DNA of 21,319 nucleotides from a virus. A program made the position numbers and the translations under genes. Shown here one piece after another: positions 2,678 through 17,130 of the stretch. Each line of letters opens with the position of its first letter. Position 1 is the first letter of the stretch. The notes under the pieces were generated by a model. That model saw only the letters and a list, made by a program, of their open reading frames with translations, did not search any database and was not told the origin of the DNA. The stretch spans positions 1 to 21,319 of the IMG/VR virus record IMGVR_UViG_3300043775_001215. One strand, given 5' to 3'.

Positions 2678-2697
2678 TACAACCCTGGACCTAGTAC
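2678..2697 (+). promoter_or_regulatory. TACAACCC-type phage promoter, copy 1
   Basis: TACAACCC (2678-2685) is preceded by a T-tract and followed by TGG and ACCT, a variant of the shared ACTT. It lies 23 nt before the ATG at 2709. It is one of five copies in 2.6-4.3 kb, each placed after a terminator and before a gene. Confidence 0.6.
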
Positions 2698-2708
2698 AAA
2701 TATGTACT
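2693..2708 (+). promoter_or_regulatory. Palindrome abutting the start codon
   Basis: AGTACA (2693-2698) and TGTACT (2703-2708) are perfect inverted repeats around AATA. They end at the base before the ATG at 2709. It could be a repressor operator or a small RNA hairpin limiting initiation. The tetramer GTAC occurs three times in the 33 nt before the gene. Confidence 0.4.
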
Positions 2709-3020
2709 ATGAAAAAATATGAAAATTATGCAACAGTTATTATTAAACTGTTCCAAAAGAAAGACAGTGATTATGTCTTTCTAAAAGATGAAATTAATGA
2801 TGCTATCATATGTAGCAAGCATATTAATTACATCAAACAGATTGGTCTAGAATTCAATGTTCCTTATGTGGCGGAACTTGGATTCTATACCAACAAAGCA
2901 GGTTATAGGGATGCAGATTTTCTGAAAGGAAAAATCTACAGCCATAACCAGCTCCAACCTGTTCCAGTTCCTGATGTTAAGAAGAAGACATCAGGATCTA
3001 AACCAGCTTGGATGAAATAA
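2709..3020 (+). CDS. Hypothetical protein, 103 aa
   Basis: I place the start at the ATG at 2709, not at the GTG/ATG near 2544. The upstream in-frame part crosses a terminator and the promoter motif and is proline-rich from the GC island. The 103-aa product begins MKKYENYATVIIKLFQ and has a mixed alpha/beta look. It ends with a basic tail (VKKKTSGSKPAWMK). I do not recognise a family. It is the first of the single-gene cassettes, bounded by a TACAACCC promoter upstream and a strong terminator immediately after the stop. It is probably expressed early and may be a DNA- or RNA-binding takeover protein, but that is a guess. Confidence 0.7.
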   Translation: MKKYENYATVIIKLFQKKDSDYVFLKDEINDAIICSKHINYIKQIGLEFNVPYVAELGFYTNKAGYRDADFLKGKIYSHNQLQPVPVPDVKKKTSGSKPAWMK

Positions 3021-3056
3021 TGGGGGCCCTTCCCCATTATTTCTTTTTGTTTTTTT
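3019..3056 (+). terminator. Rho-independent terminator
   Basis: AATGGGG (3019-3025) pairs with CCCCATT (3032-3038) across a 6-nt loop. A long T-rich run (3039-3056) follows. The stem starts inside the stop codon of the 2709-3020 gene. The T-run merges into the next promoter motif at 3057. Confidence 0.85.
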
Positions 3057-3076
3057 TACAACCCTTTACTGAACAG
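3057..3076 (+). promoter_or_regulatory. TACAACCC-type phage promoter, copy 2
   Basis: T-tract, TACAACCC (3057-3064), TTT, then ACTG. The ATG of a 23-codon ORF follows 25 nt later. Confidence 0.65.
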
Positions 3077-3089
3077 AAAATTGATTGAT

Positions 3090-3161
3090 ATGAAAAATGA
3101 ATTAGTGTTATCTAATGGAGTTGTTACTATATTATCATGGATTAGAAATCCTAATGCATAA
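3090..3161 (+). CDS. 23-aa micro-ORF in its own cassette
   Basis: A short ORF beginning MKNELVLSNGVV and ending RNPNA. It sits exactly where a gene is expected, 25 nt after a TACAACCC promoter and just before a strong terminator (3186-3222). The neighbouring cassettes with the same promoter carry proteins of 103, 120 and 166 aa. The peptide has no clear membrane helix or motif. The transcript could instead be a small RNA whose function does not need translation. The case for a gene rests on the cassette position, since 23 codons can occur by chance. Confidence 0.4.
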   Translation: MKNELVLSNGVVTILSWIRNPNA

Positions 3162-3185
3162 TTAATAGTTTCATAGTACATATGT

Positions 3186-3222
3186 AAAAGAACTTATGGT
3201 TAAGTTCTTTTATTTTTTTTTT
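3186..3222 (+). terminator. Rho-independent terminator
   Basis: An 11-bp perfect stem, 3186-3196 with 3201-3211 (arms beginning AAAAGAACTT), closes on the loop TGGT. A T-run to 3222 follows. It ends the micro-ORF transcript. Confidence 0.85.
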
Positions 3223-3232
3223 ACCTTCTTTT

Positions 3233-3252
3233 TACAACCCTTGACTTAACTA
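3233..3252 (+). promoter_or_regulatory. TACAACCC-type phage promoter, copy 3
   Basis: CTTTT then TACAACCC (3233-3240), TTG, ACTTAA. The ATG of the 120-aa gene is 24 nt downstream, at 3265. Confidence 0.65.
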
Positions 3253-3264
3253 AAATAAATAATT

Positions 3265-3627
3265 ATGGAAAATAGAATTGAGATTAATGGTAAACAAGTA
3301 ATAGATTTTACACCTGATAATGCAAGAGAAATAGCTCTTGTAGATTTAAAAGTCTTGAAGAGATTGACTGAACAATTTAAAACTAGTAGTTTTGATAGAA
3401 TCAGACATTCTCTGAGAGAAACAATAATGGCCACAACTGATTTAGATTCTTTGGTAGAGAAGTGTGAAGACTTTGCAGCATTCCATAGATCAGTTAACTT
3501 GATTCAGAAATTTAGTTTTGAGTTAACGTCTGATATGGAATCATGCAATGAATCTGGAGTTAGAGTTGTTGGTCGAATTGATCTGGATGATTTGGATACA
3601 TGTGCCAGAGATCATACAGAGTATTAA
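3265..3627 (+). CDS. Hypothetical protein, 120 aa
   Basis: A soluble, mostly helical acidic protein (MENRIEINGKQVIDFTPDNA...). It has a central helix pair rich in R/K/E and a C-terminal acidic stretch (RIDLDDLDTCARDHTEY). I do not recognise a family, and there is no signal peptide or membrane segment. It is a single-gene transcription unit with promoter copy 3 at 3233 and a terminator at 3641-3677. The A-rich leader ATAAATAATT before the ATG is typical of this phage and supports the start. Confidence 0.75.
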   Translation: MENRIEINGKQVIDFTPDNAREIALVDLKVLKRLTEQFKTSSFDRIRHSLRETIMATTDLDSLVEKCEDFAAFHRSVNLIQKFSFELTSDMESCNESGVRVVGRIDLDDLDTCARDHTEY

Positions 3628-3640
3628 CTAATAAAGAATG

Positions 3641-3677
3641 GAAAGAGACTTATATGTTAGTCTCTTTCTGTTTTTTT
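3641..3677 (+). terminator. Rho-independent terminator
   Basis: GAAAGAGACT (3641-3650) pairs with AGTCTCTTTC (3659-3668) across an 8-nt loop. A T7 run (3671-3677) follows. It ends the 3265-3627 gene. Confidence 0.85.
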
Positions 3678-3690
3678 AAAACCTTTTTTT

Positions 3691-3710
3691 TACAACCCTT
3701 AACTTGATAA
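3691..3710 (+). promoter_or_regulatory. TACAACCC-type phage promoter, copy 4
   Basis: T8 tract, TACAACCC (3691-3698), TTA, ACTTGA. The ATG at 3740 is 41 nt downstream, the longest leader of the set. Confidence 0.65.
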
Positions 3711-3739
3711 AAATTAATTATTAACTAAAAAAGTAAATT

Positions 3740-4240
3740 ATGAAACAAACAGTGATGAAACAAGAGAGTAAAGCTAAATCAACAAAGATTATGGCAACCT
3801 ATGCTGGACTAGGAAAGAATAAACAAGAAGGTCATAAGAATTTCGGGAAGAAGTTCTATAAATATGATTTGTCTGGACCAGCTGATGAGATAAAAGAATT
3901 TATAGACCATCCATCTAATAAAGATTATGAAGTAAAATATAATAGAGATGGTCAGGTTCAGTTCTGGTGTAATTGGAAAGATCTGTTCGGTACTATTGGT
4001 TCTAGATATAATGTGTATGTAACATATTATGGAACTTATAATATAGATAAGGCTGAGTCAGAAGATTTATTAGATACTCTAGAACAGTTTGAAGAACGTG
4101 GTATGAGTAATGCTAGTAGAGTGTTTACTGAACATGTTATGGCAACAAGGATGGGTTTAGGTCTGAAGAATACTAGTAGAATTGCTGAACTAGCAAATAT
4201 GTCTAGTGGGGGTGATGCTGATTTAGGAAAGTCTGAATAA
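3740..4240 (+). CDS. Hypothetical protein, 166 aa
   Basis: The protein has a lysine-rich N-terminus and a glycine/lysine patch (GLGKNKQEGHKNFGKK). A central beta-like region is rich in aromatic residues (YEVKYNRDGQVQFWCNW, YNVYVTYYGTYN). The C-terminus is helical and acidic. A second ATG occurs at codon 6, so the exact start could be 15 nt later. I do not recognise a family. It has its own promoter (3691) and a very long terminator hairpin (4247-4298). The basic front and aromatic core would suit a nucleic-acid-binding or inhibitor protein, but this is only a description. Confidence 0.75.
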   Translation: MKQTVMKQESKAKSTKIMATYAGLGKNKQEGHKNFGKKFYKYDLSGPADEIKEFIDHPSNKDYEVKYNRDGQVQFWCNWKDLFGTIGSRYNVYVTYYGTYNIDKAESEDLLDTLEQFEERGMSNASRVFTEHVMATRMGLGLKNTSRIAELANMSSGGDADLGKSE

Positions 4241-4246
4241 GACATC

Positions 4247-4305
4247 AAAAGAGATTGTAATAGAATTCTGTAATAGGAATTCTGTTGCAGTCTCTTTTGT
4301 TTTTA
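4247..4305 (+). terminator. Long-stem terminator (22 bp)
   Basis: Positions 4247-4268 pair along their whole length with 4277-4298 if three G-U pairs are allowed. The outer part is AAAAGAGA/TCTCTTTT and the inner part AGAATTC/GAATTCT. The 8-nt loop is TGTAATAG, and a short T-run follows. It is much longer than the other cassette terminators and may also be a processing site. Confidence 0.8.
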
Positions 4306-4315
4306 CCTTTATTTG

Positions 4316-4335
4316 TACAACCCGCCACTTGGCAA
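4316..4335 (+). promoter_or_regulatory. TACAACCC-type phage promoter, copy 5
   Basis: TACAACCC (4316-4323), GCC, ACTTGG. No sizeable gene follows directly. The next clear ATG with a gene is at 4630, so the transcript would have a leader of about 300 nt or be a separate small RNA. GCC and GGC around ACTT form a short inverted repeat. Confidence 0.55.
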
Positions 4336-4629
4336 AAAAGATGTTTGTAGTTATATCTTGTATACTTAGGTATTATATTTTATATTCTTAAAGGATATAT
4401 AATAGTACAGAAGGATAAGTTATTTAATACTTAATATACTATACTTAACCTATAGAAGTTTCTATATCTTAAGTAGTAAATATACTTTATTGTAAGTATT
4501 TGTGTATTAGTATGTTAGTGATACTTAACCTATACCACTTATTTCTACTTAAGTATACTCAATATAATTACTCTATATTATATATACTTATATAATATTT
4601 TATATAGCTAACTATTTAAATAAACATAT
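4324..4629. other. AT-rich TACTTA repeat array, candidate origin or operator region
   Basis: About 300 nt without a gene and almost entirely A/T. The hexamer TACTTA occurs at 4363, 4428, 4442, 4522, 4546 and 4585. Its complement TAAGTA occurs at 4470, 4493 and 4550, with 4546-4555 forming the palindrome TACTTAAGTA. The 14-mer ATACTTAACCTATA occurs twice, at 4441 and 4521, exactly 80 bp apart. Repeated short sites in a DNA-unwinding-prone stretch suggest a replication origin or a cluster of operators for a phage regulator. Confidence 0.55.
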
Positions 4630-4911
4630 ATGAAAACAAGGATTTATGATTCTTTTGTGATAGGCATTATAGTAGGTGCATTATCCTTTTGTGTAATACA
4701 AGTTATACTTGGTTATACTTATACTAGTTCAGTAACAAAGACTCCGGAAAATGTGTCAAAAGACTGGACAGATGTCGGTGGTAACATCGACATAGAATAC
4801 TATCTTGAAGTAAGTGAAGATAGTATTTGGGTTGAGAATGTAGAAAGCCATAGAGTATATGGTGGTACTTATACTCAATTAGATTCATTAATAACAATAG
4901 ATAACTTATAA
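4630..4911 (+). CDS. Single-pass membrane protein, 93 aa
   Basis: Residues about 8-29 (SFVIGIIVGALSFCVIQVIL) form one transmembrane helix after a short basic start (MKTRIYD). A polar C-terminal domain of about 60 residues follows. There is no signal-peptidase motif, so it is probably an N-terminally anchored protein; orientation is not certain. I do not recognise a family. It follows the TACTTA repeat array, with the leader TTTAAATAAACATAT before the ATG, and is followed 21 nt later by a 77-aa gene. A role at the host envelope is plausible but unsupported. Confidence 0.72.
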   Translation: MKTRIYDSFVIGIIVGALSFCVIQVILGYTYTSSVTKTPENVSKDWTDVGGNIDIEYYLEVSEDSIWVENVESHRVYGGTYTQLDSLITIDNL

Positions 4912-5166: not shown

Positions 5167-5441
5167 TGACCTTTCCTGAGCATGAATTAAAACTGCTCAT
5201 TTATCAAACGTAACGTGGAACAACTCATGAAAGCATAATGAGCCACATCTACAGGAGTTAGGCATTTGGAATCTACGGTATTTATACCTGGGGATTTTAT
5301 GACTTTATACTGTAGTTATAATGCACCATTCTCACTTCCCAAGGGTGAGCAGTTATTGAAATGTTGCCATATCAATAAGTCTAAAACAGTAACTGAGTGC
5401 AGAGGGTATTTAACTTAAATATAAATTCAAAAAATAAACTT
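5167..5441 (+). ncRNA. Structured untranslated region, candidate ncRNA or leader
   Basis: 275 nt without a plausible ORF but with many complementary arms. TGAGCA (5177) pairs with TGCTCA (5194). GTGG plus CTCAT (5215, 5224) pairs with ATGAG plus CCAC (5238, 5243). CTACGGTAT (5273) pairs with ATACTGTAG (5307), and CTCAC (5331) with GTGAG (5345). ATTGA (5355) pairs with TCAAT (5372). In addition AACTGCTC (5191-5198) is perfectly complementary to GAGCAGTT (5347-5354), which competes with two of the local hairpins. It may be a regulatory leader of the 5442 gene or a free RNA. Confidence 0.4.
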
Positions 5442-7742: not shown

Positions 7743-8033
7743 TACCTTGTGACAGGAATTTAGAACAACTAAAATTCAATGGTTGATTACCATTATACAA
7801 TGAATACTTGATAGTATAAACCGCTTCTCTTCAAAATTATAAAACTGAGATAGAACTCATCATCAGACAGGTTATGCATAAAAACAAAATATGCAATTGG
7901 CTGATAACATTGAGACTTAGTATTTGTATTTGTCTTTGTAGAAGAGAAGGTCTTTGACTTAGTATTTGTTTTTGATTTTAGCTATATATTCCTGTTACTT
8001 GGTGACTATATTATTTATTTTAATAAAAATATT
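7743..8033 (+). ncRNA. Gene-free region with nested inverted repeats, candidate ncRNA
   Basis: No plausible ORF. CTTCTCTTC (7824-7832) is perfectly complementary to GAAGAGAAG (7941-7949), closing a domain of about 125 nt. Inside it, ATCAG (7862) pairs with CTGAT (7901) and TGCATA (7875) pairs with TATGCA (7890). TGAG/CTCA also flank ATAGAA near 7846. The tail holds two direct repeats of GACTTAGTATTTGT (7914 and 7956). It also holds TTAGCTATATATTCCT (7978-7993), which recurs before the 9685 gene. Confidence 0.35.
7978..7993 (+). promoter_or_regulatory. Shared upstream element TTAGCTATATATTCCT, copy 1
   Basis: This 16-mer occurs identically at 9608-9623. Here it ends 40 nt before the ATG at 8034, and in the second case 61 nt before the ATG at 9685. 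It is a candidate promoter or operator of a class different from the TACAACCC motif. Confidence 0.45.
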
Positions 8034-9607: not shown

Positions 9608-9623
9608 TTAGCTATATATTCCT
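9608..9623 (+). promoter_or_regulatory. Shared upstream element TTAGCTATATATTCCT, copy 2
   Basis: Identical to 7978-7993. It sits just after the terminator of the previous unit and 61 nt before the ATG at 9685, where a promoter would be expected. Confidence 0.45.
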
Positions 9624-11778: not shown

Positions 11779-12675
11779 ATGACAGAAGAATTAAAAATAT
11801 TACATGAAAAAATACCTGAGTCAGATCCTAGAACTTTAAAACAAATACTTACAAATAAGAAACTTTGTAAAGAAATAATTAAAAGAGATGTTATTTCTGA
11901 AAGACAGCTTATTACTGAGTATAATATTCCTTTAAATTATCTTAAAGGATTGAAGTCTAGAAAAGTTATCAGTTATTTTAGTACAAGAGGGCAACTTAAT
12001 GTCCCTAAAAAAGGATCTAAGTATTATTATTTCTTAGATGAGGTACAAAATTTAATGGGCTATAATATAAAATATAGTTCAAGTTTTGTGTTCCGGTATA
12101 ATTTAATGAATAGAGTTATTTTAGAATTATCTAAAGAACTTAATGCTGAAAAACATACAAGGATGCTTTATAGATTTCTTAAAGATAATAAATCAATAGA
12201 AGAGATTTCTGATATGTTTGATATGAGCCGTGAAAGAGTTATTCAGATATTAACTAAAAGTGCCAATAGAGTTATTTATTTTACAGCAAGATATTTTAGA
12301 ACAGAGGAGCTTGATAGAGAGAGAATATCTCTTTTAAGTGAAAATGAATTACTAAAGTGTCAGAATACACAACTGTATAATAAATTCTTGAGAGATAAAG
12401 AAAATCAAATAACCAAAGAATTTAATTCTAAAGAACATGTTCAATATTTTATTAAGCATGGATATGATATTAATGATTTAAAGATGAGTTGTATGGATTT
12501 TGCATTATCTGTAAGAACAATAAACTGTTTGAATGCTGCAGATATACTTACTCTTGAAGATCTGTTAGTATCCAGAAAGTCTGACTTAATGAGATACAGA
12601 AACTTTGGTAAGAAATCACTAGATGAACTTTGTGATTGGTTGGAAGATAATTATAATTGGCAATTAATTCATTAA
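11779..12675 (+). CDS. Sigma region 4 / RNAP alpha-CTD fusion transcription factor
   Basis: 298 aa with three DNA/RNA polymerase-linked parts. Residues about 38-92 resemble an excisionase-type winged HTH (ERQLITEYNI, KGLKSRKVISYF, KYYYFLDEV). Residues about 125-168 match sigma-70 region 4 (SIEEISDMFDMSRERVIQIL, then SANRV), including the S-R-E-R-V-x-Q-I recognition helix. Residues about 236-292 match the RNA polymerase alpha C-terminal domain: D239-FALSVRTINCLNAADI, then LTLEDLL, then RNFGKKSLDEL. The last two are separate domains of the transcription machinery, here joined in one protein. The likely role is redirecting host RNA polymerase to phage promoters. Regions 2 and 3 of a normal sigma are absent, so it may act as an activator or partial sigma. 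Confidence 0.82.
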   Translation: MTEELKILHEKIPESDPRTLKQILTNKKLCKEIIKRDVISERQLITEYNIPLNYLKGLKSRKVISYFSTRGQLNVPKKGSKYYYFLDEVQNLMGYNIKYSSSFVFRYNLMNRVILELSKELNAEKHTRMLYRFLKDNKSIEEISDMFDMSRERVIQILTKSANRVIYFTARYFRTEELDRERISLLSENELLKCQNTQLYNKFLRDKENQITKEFNSKEHVQYFIKHGYDINDLKMSCMDFALSVRTINCLNAADILTLEDLLVSRKSDLMRYRNFGKKSLDELCDWLEDNYNWQLIH

Positions 12676-12679
12676 AATT

Positions 12680-13774
12680 ATGACAAAAGATGAAGTTCAA
12701 TTAGAAGCATTAAAAGCAACTGAAGGAAAAAGAAAGTGTAGTGTAGTCTTAGGTACTGGTGTAGGAAAGACTCTTGTGGGTTTGAGTCACATAGAACTTA
12801 ATACTACTGCATTGATGAAAGTACTTATTGTTGCTCCAAAAAAGTCAATCTTTCAGTCATGGAAAGATGATGCTGTAAAGTTTGATAAAGAAGATTTATT
12901 AGGTAGAATGACTTTTACAACTTATCTAAGTTTGAATAAACATAACCCTAATGACTATCATGCTGTCTATTTGGATGAGATGCATAGTTTATTAGATAGT
13001 CACCGGGGATTTCTTCAGTTGTATACTGGTAAAATCTTAGGTTTGACTGGTACTCCACCAAAAAGAGATTATTCAGAGAAAGGTAAGTTAGTAAATGAGT
13101 TTTGTCCTGTAGTATATACATTCAAAGCAGATGATGCTGTAGAGAATGGAATACTAAATGATTATCAGATAGTAGTACATCAGCTTAAATTATCTACAGA
13201 AAAAAATTATGTAGTAAATCAAGGTGGTAGAAAATGGGTAACTGATGAAGAATCTAATTATACTTACTGGTCTAGAAGAATTGATGTAGGTTCTGGTAAT
13301 ATGCATATGCTCAGAGTGATGAGGATGAAAGCTATGATGGAGTATCCTAGTAAAGAAAAGTATACTAAACTTCTTATGCAAAGTATTAATACTAAATGTA
13401 TTGTATTTGCTAATACTCAAGCACAAGCTGATTTACTATGTGAATATAGTTATCACAGTAATAACAAAGAGTCTGAAGATAATTTACTTATGTTTAAAGA
13501 AGGAAAGATAGACAAACTATCTACTGTTATGCAGTTGAATGAGGGTGTTAATATTTCTAATCTTAAACAGGGTATTATTATGCATGCATATGGTAATGAA
13601 AGAAAATCTGCACAAAGAATTGGTAGGTTACTGAGACTTAATCCAGATGATAAAGCTATTGTGCACATACTATGTTACATGGATACAATAGATGAAAAAT
13701 GGGTCACTGAAGCATTAGAAAACTTTGATCAAACTAAAATTGTTTGGAAAGATTTTAATATTTCATTATATTAG
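12680..13774 (+). CDS. Superfamily 2 DNA helicase/ATPase
   Basis: 364 aa. Motifs run in order: a Q-motif-like VQLEAL (6-11), Walker A GTGVGKT (25-31), VLIVAPKKS (motif Ia, 48-56), the DEMH box (99-102), LTGTPP (motif III, 122-127), IVFANTQAQADLL (motif IV, 241-253), LNEGVNIS (motif V, 286-293) and QRIGRLLR (motif VI, 312-319). This is a compact helicase of the UvsW / type III restriction-like branch, with no extra nuclease or accessory domain. Phage members act in replication-fork rescue, recombination or origin unwinding. It starts 4 nt after the transcription-factor gene and ends 4 nt before the ClpS gene. Confidence 0.9.
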   Translation: MTKDEVQLEALKATEGKRKCSVVLGTGVGKTLVGLSHIELNTTALMKVLIVAPKKSIFQSWKDDAVKFDKEDLLGRMTFTTYLSLNKHNPNDYHAVYLDEMHSLLDSHRGFLQLYTGKILGLTGTPPKRDYSEKGKLVNEFCPVVYTFKADDAVENGILNDYQIVVHQLKLSTEKNYVVNQGGRKWVTDEESNYTYWSRRIDVGSGNMHMLRVMRMKAMMEYPSKEKYTKLLMQSINTKCIVFANTQAQADLLCEYSYHSNNKESEDNLLMFKEGKIDKLSTVMQLNEGVNISNLKQGIIMHAYGNERKSAQRIGRLLRLNPDDKAIVHILCYMDTIDEKWVTEALENFDQTKIVWKDFNISLY

Positions 13775-16260: not shown

Positions 16261-17130
16261 ATGTCTGTAGTAGAAAAAGTTACCAGAAAGTCTATGGTTA
16301 TTAGACCTTCTGGTAGATCTACAGATTTTATCAGCCCAAGTTTTGGACATGGTTGTCTTTATAACTGTACATACTGTTATATGAAAAGACACAAACCGGA
16401 AGGACTTTCTATAGCTACTAATACTATGGATATCCTGACAGAGATTAATTCACATGCTTATTTTTCTACAGTAGAGAAACCTAATCAAACTGGAGAGTAT
16501 ATTACTTATGATATTTCTTGTAATGAAGACTTTGCTCTACATGCAAAATATCATGACTGGAAAACAATCTTTGCATTCTTCAGAGATCATCCACTTGCTA
16601 TGGGTTCATTTGCTACTAAATATGCAAATAAGGATCTTTTAGAATTTAATCCAGAAGGTAAGATTAGAATAAGATTTAGTCTTATGCCAGAGAAATGGAG
16701 AAAAGTTCTTGAACCTAATACAAGTTCTCTTGATGAAAGATTAAATGCTGTATACTTGTTTTTAAGAGCCGGATATGAAGTTCACTTAAATTTTAGTCCA
16801 GTAATAGTTCATGATAATTGGCTTATAGAGTATGAGTTTTTGTTTCATATAATCAACAGACATTCTACTTTTAATAAATGGAATACTGATAATGTAAAAG
16901 CTGAAGTAATATTTCTTACTCATAATGAAGAAAAGCACTTTTATAATCTACAGCATAAACTTCCAGGAGAAGAATTACTTTGGGTACCTAAAATACAAGA
17001 AAGCAAAACTTCTGAATATGGTGGAGCAAATCTTAGATATGAACACAAAAGAAAAGCTGATTATATTAAAAAATGGACTAAATTACATGATGAACATATT
17101 CCTTGGAATACAATCCGTTATATATTTTAA
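16261..17130 (+). CDS. Spore photoproduct lyase-like radical SAM protein
   Basis: 289 aa. FGHGCLYNCTYCYMKRH holds the radical-SAM cluster as C32-x3-C36-x2-C39. Downstream the order follows spore photoproduct lyase (SPL): DISCNED (84-90), whose C87 matches the position of the catalytic hydrogen-donor Cys (B. subtilis C141), then ATKYANKDLL, then IRIRFSLMP. Next come LEPNTSSLDERLNAV and GYEVHLNFSPVIVHDNW, matching the SPL 'FEPxTSSxxERIxAAxxxxxAGYPLGFxxAPI' stretch. SPL reverses the thymine photoproduct made by UV in spores. A phage and a non-sporing host suggest repair or editing of another nucleic-acid lesion or modification. It lies in the operon 2 nt before the next gene. Confidence 0.87.
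   Translation: MSVVEKVTRKSMVIRPSGRSTDFISPSFGHGCLYNCTYCYMKRHKPEGLSIATNTMDILTEINSHAYFSTVEKPNQTGEYITYDISCNEDFALHAKYHDWKTIFAFFRDHPLAMGSFATKYANKDLLEFNPEGKIRIRFSLMPEKWRKVLEPNTSSLDERLNAVYLFLRAGYEVHLNFSPVIVHDNWLIEYEFLFHIINRHSTFNKWNTDNVKAEVIFLTHNEEKHFYNLQHKLPGEELLWVPKIQESKTSEYGGANLRYEHKRKADYIKKWTKLHDEHIPWNTIRYIF

Follow-up and report, generated by a model that had tools for sequence, protein, structure and literature searches.

A repeated early-region motif in an uncultured crAss-like phage lineage: predicted promoters for the virion RNA polymerase

In the crAss-like phages, an abundant group, a sigma-independent RNA polymerase is packaged inside the particle. In phage N4, the virion RNA polymerase is T7-like and requires a hairpin. 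The N4 hairpin promoters serve this injected polymerase early in infection (PMC4496689). In the Thermus phage P23-45, an AT-rich pre-early motif has been assigned to the virion polymerase, in part because relatives that lack the enzyme also lack the motif (PMC10770324). In crAss-like phages, the virion polymerase transcribes the early and middle genes, and the host polymerase probably transcribes the late ones (review, PMC10136315; RNA sequencing of crAss001, PMC8375218); the early transcription of phi14:2 is reported to be rifampicin resistant (Drobysheva et al. 2021, cited in PMC10136315). Here, we describe a motif, the octamer TACAACCC followed after three bases by ACTT, that is repeated five times in the window, that is, the whole 21,319-nucleotide (nt) stretch of IMG/VR record IMGVR_UViG_3300043775_001215 that was analyzed. 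The five sites are probably early promoters of a crAss-like phage that are read by its giant, two-barrel virion RNA polymerase.

The motif and the phage lineage

The window contains exactly five copies of the octamer TACAACCC, all of them on the + strand and between positions 2678 and 4323, with no further exact copy in the 21,319 bases; in 500 dinucleotide shuffles, the mean was 0.34 copies and the maximum 3. When the pattern is extended to TACAACCC-N3-ACTT with at most one mismatch, the five sites, which span 1.65 kb, compare with a mean of 0.065 and a maximum of 1 in 200 dinucleotide shuffles; at this threshold, the opposite strand of the window contains no match, and a reversed control pattern likewise gives none. 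A first-pass annotation, made from the sequence without database searches, had listed the five copies at 2678, 3057, 3233, 3691, and 4316, with ACTT or a one-base variant three bases after each octamer, a T tract usually in front, and a start codon 23 to 41 nt behind four of them, all of which was found to be correct. Site 1 (TACAACCC-TGG-ACCT, 2678 to 2692) has orthologous sites in the relatives G003, L013, L017, L071 to L073, and L083; site 2 (TACAACCC-TTT-ACTG, 3057 to 3071) precedes a conserved 23-codon open reading frame (ORF); site 3 (TACAACCC-TTG-ACTT, 3233 to 3247) and site 4 (TACAACCC-TTA-ACTT, 3691 to 3705) precede the genes at 3265 and 3740, respectively; and site 5 (TACAACCC-GCC-ACTT, 4316 to 4330) is the last. 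From the end of the octamer to the ATG, the distances at sites 1 to 4 are 23, 25, 24, and 41 nt (ATGs at 2709, 3090, 3265, and 3740). There is no start codon near site 5, which is followed by ∼300 nt of AT-rich non-coding DNA. The T tract has the form CC-T(6-9) at most sites.

The window, a 21-kb fragment, represents an uncultured lineage of crAss-like phages (Crassvirales in the wide sense), and the DnaB proteins nearest to its own are those of crAss-like phages (∼29%). Many of its proteins recur in the long relatives G003 (102.7 kb) and G012 (122.8 kb), among them the helicase at 12680 (67% and 86% identical, respectively) and the leftward protein at 1715 (79% and 92%). Both relatives encode a crAss-type terminase (E value, 4e-36) and portal (E value, 2e-23 or better) matching those of cr52_1, genes that the window contig does not contain, and the major capsid protein (MCP) of the relatives matches gp102 of phi14:2 (E value, 6e-9). 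Within the collection of annotated phages, the best match of the G003 capsid protein (L058:8693-10306, − strand) is Lbo-JY46, a phage of the cyanobacterium Leptolyngbya (28% identity over 99%), which is nearer to it than any Bacteroidota phage in that collection. Host labels obtained through relatives of the capsid protein in metagenome-assembled genomes conflict (Campylobacteraceae, Bacteroidales, Chitinophagaceae, and Pseudomonadales) and are unusable.

In G003 and G012, ORFs of 3480 to 4028 amino acids (aa) align with gp077 of phi14:2 through the catalytic GADFDIDK (the DFDxD motif). In a profile search, gp077 corresponds to PDB entry 6VR4, “DNA-dependent RNA polymerase,” a match to a profile that includes its own sequence and is therefore not independent for G003; the G003 polymerase alone had no match in PDB. 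A homolog of the virion polymerase was found in 21 of the 21 long relatives examined. The genes of G003, G012, and other relatives are arranged in strand blocks: one strand encodes the structural proteins and the polymerase, and the other encodes the early and replication proteins. The motif cluster marks the start of the early/replication arm, opposite the polymerase arm, so that the sites lie on one strand upstream of the earliest genes, “earliest” being judged by position. The relatives resemble phi14:2 in both the homologous polymerase and the early/middle arm opposite the structural/polymerase arm, although the polymerases themselves are only 21 to 24% identical.

The motif family and its association with the polymerase

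The motif of the window is one variant of a wider family, which lay beyond the reach of the first-pass annotation. The same motif, denoted class A, is present in two to five copies at the same place in ∼10 diverged lineages (the window, G003, L008, L013, L017, L069, L071, L072, L073, and L083), amounting to ∼38 distinct sites. In G003, three copies at 91350 to 92432, where the arm opposite the polymerase begins, are the sole ones in 102.7 kb at up to one mismatch. Altered versions occupy the same position elsewhere, in 3 to 10 copies on one strand within 1 to 4 kb. By their cores, the variants are TACAACCC, TCTAGCCC, GCTAACCC, and ATCAACCC (then approximately TTAACTT), or else AGCAACTTTTATTGT or TACAGCTTTTAACTA. 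Specifically, the variant is TCTAGCCCTTAACTT in G012, G024, G027, and L090, GCTAACCCTTAACTT in G021 and G032, ATCAACCCTTAATTT in G023, TACAGCTTTTAACTA in G028, and AGCAACTTTTATTGT in L019, G015, G017, and others; further spellings at the equivalent position are TACAGCTT and AGCAACTT, and one variant site reads AGCAACTTTTATTG. The more distant relative G034 has TATAACCTATTACT, and G030 and G033 possibly have CCTTTCTTTTTTAAAA, as read by eye only. The aligned CCCTT-type sites have in common a T tract started by C, YARCCC, TTAACTT, and an A-rich stretch. Single matches in L010, L015, L016, L070, L074 to L082, and L084 were mostly isolated and were judged to be chance; a search of bacterial genomes with the class A consensus found none.

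De novo clustering of 9-mers recovered the many-copy variants (G015, G017, and G028) and missed the three-copy ones, which were read from the upstream sequences. Because the variants beyond the first were found partly by eye and then tested, the evidence for them is the leave-one-variant-out test rather than their discovery. In this test, a matrix trained on the other variants was applied to a sequence with the omitted one; it ranked an early-arm site first in all eight sequences (21 to 122 kb), and early-arm sites occupied the top two ranks in seven of the eight, with G003 having the first only; below the true sites, the ranks were mixed.

The motif type follows the polymerase rather than the rest of the genome. 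Polymerases of the genomes with CCCTT motifs are 55 to 76% identical to one another, whereas those of the clade comprising G015, G017, and G028 are 34 to 43% identical to this set, even though terminase, portal, and MCP, taken together, are 80 to 85% identical between the two sets. In the polymerase tree, the CCCTT and CTTTTA motif types each form a single clade (support of 100/99 and 100/100). Conversely, in the terminase/portal/MCP tree, G023 (CCCTT) joins G015 and G017 (CTTTTA; 92/96), and G028 (CTTTTA) joins the other CCCTT phages (94/97); G028 also falls among the CCCTT phages in the replication-gene tree (approximate likelihood ratio test, 99.8; bootstrap, 59). The replication genes of the window group with those of G021 and G032, whereas its polymerase is predicted to be nearest to that of G003. 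Furthermore, the proteins downstream of the motif in L019 are 53 to 87% identical to those of the window, yet its motif is of the CTTTTA type.

As judged from sequence, the motif sites are very likely promoters, and they are probably read by the virion polymerase, either unaided or together with virion proteins that are ejected with it. Under the proposed mechanism, the injected polymerase would recognize CC-T(6-9)-TACAACCC-NNN-ACTT and start RNA synthesis shortly downstream of it, probably within the A-rich sequence 15 to 25 nt from the beginning of the octamer. The short early cassettes, most of them ended by a terminator, would then be transcribed, and the long middle (replication) transcript, which runs rightward, would originate at the fifth site. 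Host RNA polymerase would serve the leftward late arm from TAnnTTTG boxes. The hairpin promoters of N4 are likewise early promoters for an injected polymerase, but the N4 enzyme needs its hairpin, and the motif sites lack a general inverted repeat: on inspection of the 38 class A sites, inverted repeats were isolated, occurring at a few sites and at the last one, and an N4-type promoter was rejected. The proposed mechanism fits the published division of labor between the virion polymerase for early and middle genes and the host polymerase for late ones (PMC10136315, PMC8375218). P23-45 likewise has a conserved motif upstream of pre-early genes together with a two-barrel virion polymerase (PMC10770324); it belongs to another phage group, its motif has a different sequence, and its assignment draws on mapped start sites and chromatin immunoprecipitation, whereas the present one draws on sequence (PMC10770324).

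Several points weigh against this assignment. Promoter function is a prediction, and the window contig stops short of the polymerase gene, so that we infer the same enzyme in this phage. One of the decisive splits in the replication-gene tree is weakly supported (the bootstrap of 59 given above), and the tree comparison stands on a small number of independent swaps (approximately one to two). The early genes travel with the motif, and the link between polymerase and motif is therefore a correlation. Two giant virion proteins adjoining the polymerase also cosegregate with it and may for that reason share in recognition. Finally, no comparable motif was recognized in the early region of phi14:2 by a repeat search and by eye or in crAss001 by eye, a further difference from the phi14:2 system, and the assignment therefore cannot be extended to all crAss-like phages.

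Alternative explanations for the sites

The sites could instead be early promoters of the host RNA polymerase, used with an alternative sigma factor or one modified by the phage, a reading that we consider unlikely. Phage early genes are commonly transcribed by the host polymerase, and TTGACTT at some sites loosely resembles a −35 hexamer; however, no second conserved element was found at the −10 distance. Promoter-like sites of the Escherichia coli sigma-70 type (TTGACA-N16-18-TATAAT) number 17 in the region compared with 22.6 in shuffles, and none lies at the five motif sites. The primary-sigma promoter of the Bacteroidota consists of TTTG at −33 and TAnnTTTG at −7, and as the first-pass annotation had pointed out, the TACAACCC motif is unlike it: the motif sites lack TAnnTTTG, and this box is enriched neither in the early clusters nor on the early/middle arm (15 of 236 gaps, with 15.3 expected). 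On the late arm, in contrast, it lies upstream in 45 of 208 gaps, with 12.8 expected, an excess present in 10 of 10 genomes and with both motif types. In the window, such host-type boxes on the − strand are TATGTTTG at 2478 to 2485, for the leftward arm, where the adjoining sequence is nearly identical in L017 and G012, and TATATTTG at 1502 to 1509 and again at 1405 to 1412, just before the leftward gene at 1400 to 1206. Moreover, phages whose capsid and replication genes are closely similar, and whose host-type late boxes are the same, carry different motif types, and the motif type tracks the polymerase type. The earlier proposal had been either a dedicated phage transcription system or a host factor not usually described. 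The first branch gains support because the relatives encode a crAss-type virion RNA polymerase, because the motif type tracks that polymerase, and because host-type boxes are enriched solely on the other arm; the host-factor branch has become less likely.

Still less probable is a phage-encoded accessory factor that reads the sites as promoters or operators. The example at hand is the protein encoded at 11779 to 12675 (+ strand), a fusion of a sigma-70 region 4-like domain (weak match) and an RNA polymerase alpha-CTD (E value, 5e-15), which resembles a transcription factor. It is absent, however, from several motif carriers (G003, L013, and L017), in which the flanking genes abut, and for this protein the explanation is refuted; the small probability that the explanation retains belongs to an injected or early-made factor from a different family. 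Nor does the protein cosegregate: L019 and G017, which carry the other motif type, have it, as do G012 and G023, whereas G021, G032, G028, G015, and G027 do not. This patchily distributed gene forms a clean insertion between an HNH gene and the helicase gene, and its product is possibly a phage transcription factor for a later stage.

A role of the sites at the RNA level, as a conserved element of 5′ leaders that serves translation or processing, with the promoter elsewhere, appears quite improbable. Their position 23 to 41 nt upstream of start codons would suit such a role, as would the complementarity around ACTT at site 5 in all lineages listed, but the spacing to the ATG varies, site 5 has no ORF, and the complementarity is not common to sites 1 to 4. 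Several sites, in addition, directly follow a terminator-like stem, which leaves 40 to 70 nt for a promoter, and the motif is the conserved element there. A terminator scan found a stem with a T run on the + strand before site 2 (3014 to 3043) and before site 5 (4249 to 4296); the stem before site 4 (3641 to 3668) is listed by the scan on the − strand only, with a T run after it on the + strand, and a low-GC stem before site 3 was seen by eye only. No stem was found by the scan upstream of site 1, and the earlier statement that each site follows a terminator was thus slightly overstated.

Two sites show pairing of their own. At the last site (4324 to 4333), the triplets that flank ACTT are complementary to each other in 10 of the 10 lineages listed, and four versions of them occur (GCC/GGC, ACC/GGT, GTC/GAC, and TTC/GAA); such N3-ACTT-N3 complementarity is not general at sites 1 to 4. 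Between site 1 and the ATG at 2709 lies a palindrome (AGTAC..GTACT, 2692 to 2711), the pairing of which is kept while the letters vary (AGTAC/GTACT, AGTAT/ATACT, and AGTC/GACT) in L008, L071, L072, L083, and others; it is a candidate operator or RNA hairpin.

The sites lie close to where the two arms diverge, which would suit repeats of a replication origin or of a partition or packaging signal, but one copy per gene, on one strand and at a roughly fixed distance from the start codon over 1.6 to 4 kb, is no compact array, and this origin of the repeats is very improbable. Chance or a simple-repeat artifact, although only five copies are present, can be dismissed in view of the shuffles, the leave-one-variant-out prediction, and the conservation found in independent lineages.

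Surrounding features and implications

Behind site 1, early gene 1 (2709 to 3020, + strand) encodes 103 aa, and its homologs behind the orthologous site in relatives are 36 to 51% identical. Directly behind site 2 is a 23-aa micro-ORF (3090 to 3161, + strand; MKNELVLSNGVVTILSWIRNPNA), and L013, L017, and L071 encode similar peptides at the equivalent position; this conserved ORF of 23 to 24 codons, with a consensus near MKNQ-V-NGVVTILSWI-NPN, is a candidate early microprotein gene. Early gene 2 (3265 to 3627, + strand; 120 aa) has homologs in L013, L017, and G032, and early gene 3 (3740 to 4240, + strand; 166 aa) has homologs in G003, L008, L013, and L017. The three early proteins, all of unassigned function, had no significant match in Pfam or PHROGs, and direct DNA matches to the motif region were not found among annotated phages. 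Relatives with the other motif type possess a row of ∼10 tiny genes, every one provided with a motif copy and a T run of its own (L019, 940 to 3910; G015, 65.4 to 69.2 kb; and G017, 97.6 to 100.7 kb), a larger early arsenal than that of the window.

The AT-rich non-coding stretch after site 5 (4331 to 4629, + strand), a layout shared by relatives, may form a long leader or give rise to a non-coding RNA, and it ends near TATATAGCTAA (4601 to 4611), just before the gene at 4630. TATATAGCTAA, also found in relatives, is the reversed core of TAGCTATATATTCCT, of which two intergenic copies lie in the middle arm (7979 to 7993 and 9609 to 9623); the two may represent a middle-arm signal. Another non-coding block (5167 to 5400) is >90% identical to L017, although the flanking early genes are 36 to 66% identical; it contains ...ACTGAGTGCAGAGGG, present also in G034 and G027, and looks like a conserved RNA. 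Rfam and tRNA scans gave no result above threshold, and neither of these two stretches matched Rfam. Finally, a radical-SAM protein of the spore photoproduct lyase family (16261 to 17130; Pfam SPL, E value of 2e-23) is widespread among the relatives.

In the literature covered, which excludes the primary phi14:2 paper, no promoter consensus or start-site choice for crAss-like polymerases was found, and the novelty of such a promoter family is provisional. More tentatively than the assignment of the five sites, the motif family as a whole may be the cognate promoter set of crAss-like virion polymerases, with polymerase and early promoters forming a matched, exchangeable pair, a proposal that we rate at slightly below even. 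If true, the members of this pair are separated by ∼40 kb, assuming circular genomes, and replacement of the polymerase module accompanies replacement of the early-promoter cassettes in genomes that are otherwise collinear and have structural proteins 80 to 85% identical. A sigma-free two-barrel polymerase would then recognize a compact, sequence-specific promoter, either by itself or via co-ejected virion proteins. A promoter family in which natural variants are matched by variants of the enzyme would make promoter recognition directly testable, and the motif would serve as a sequence marker for the early region of crAss-like genomes in this lineage.

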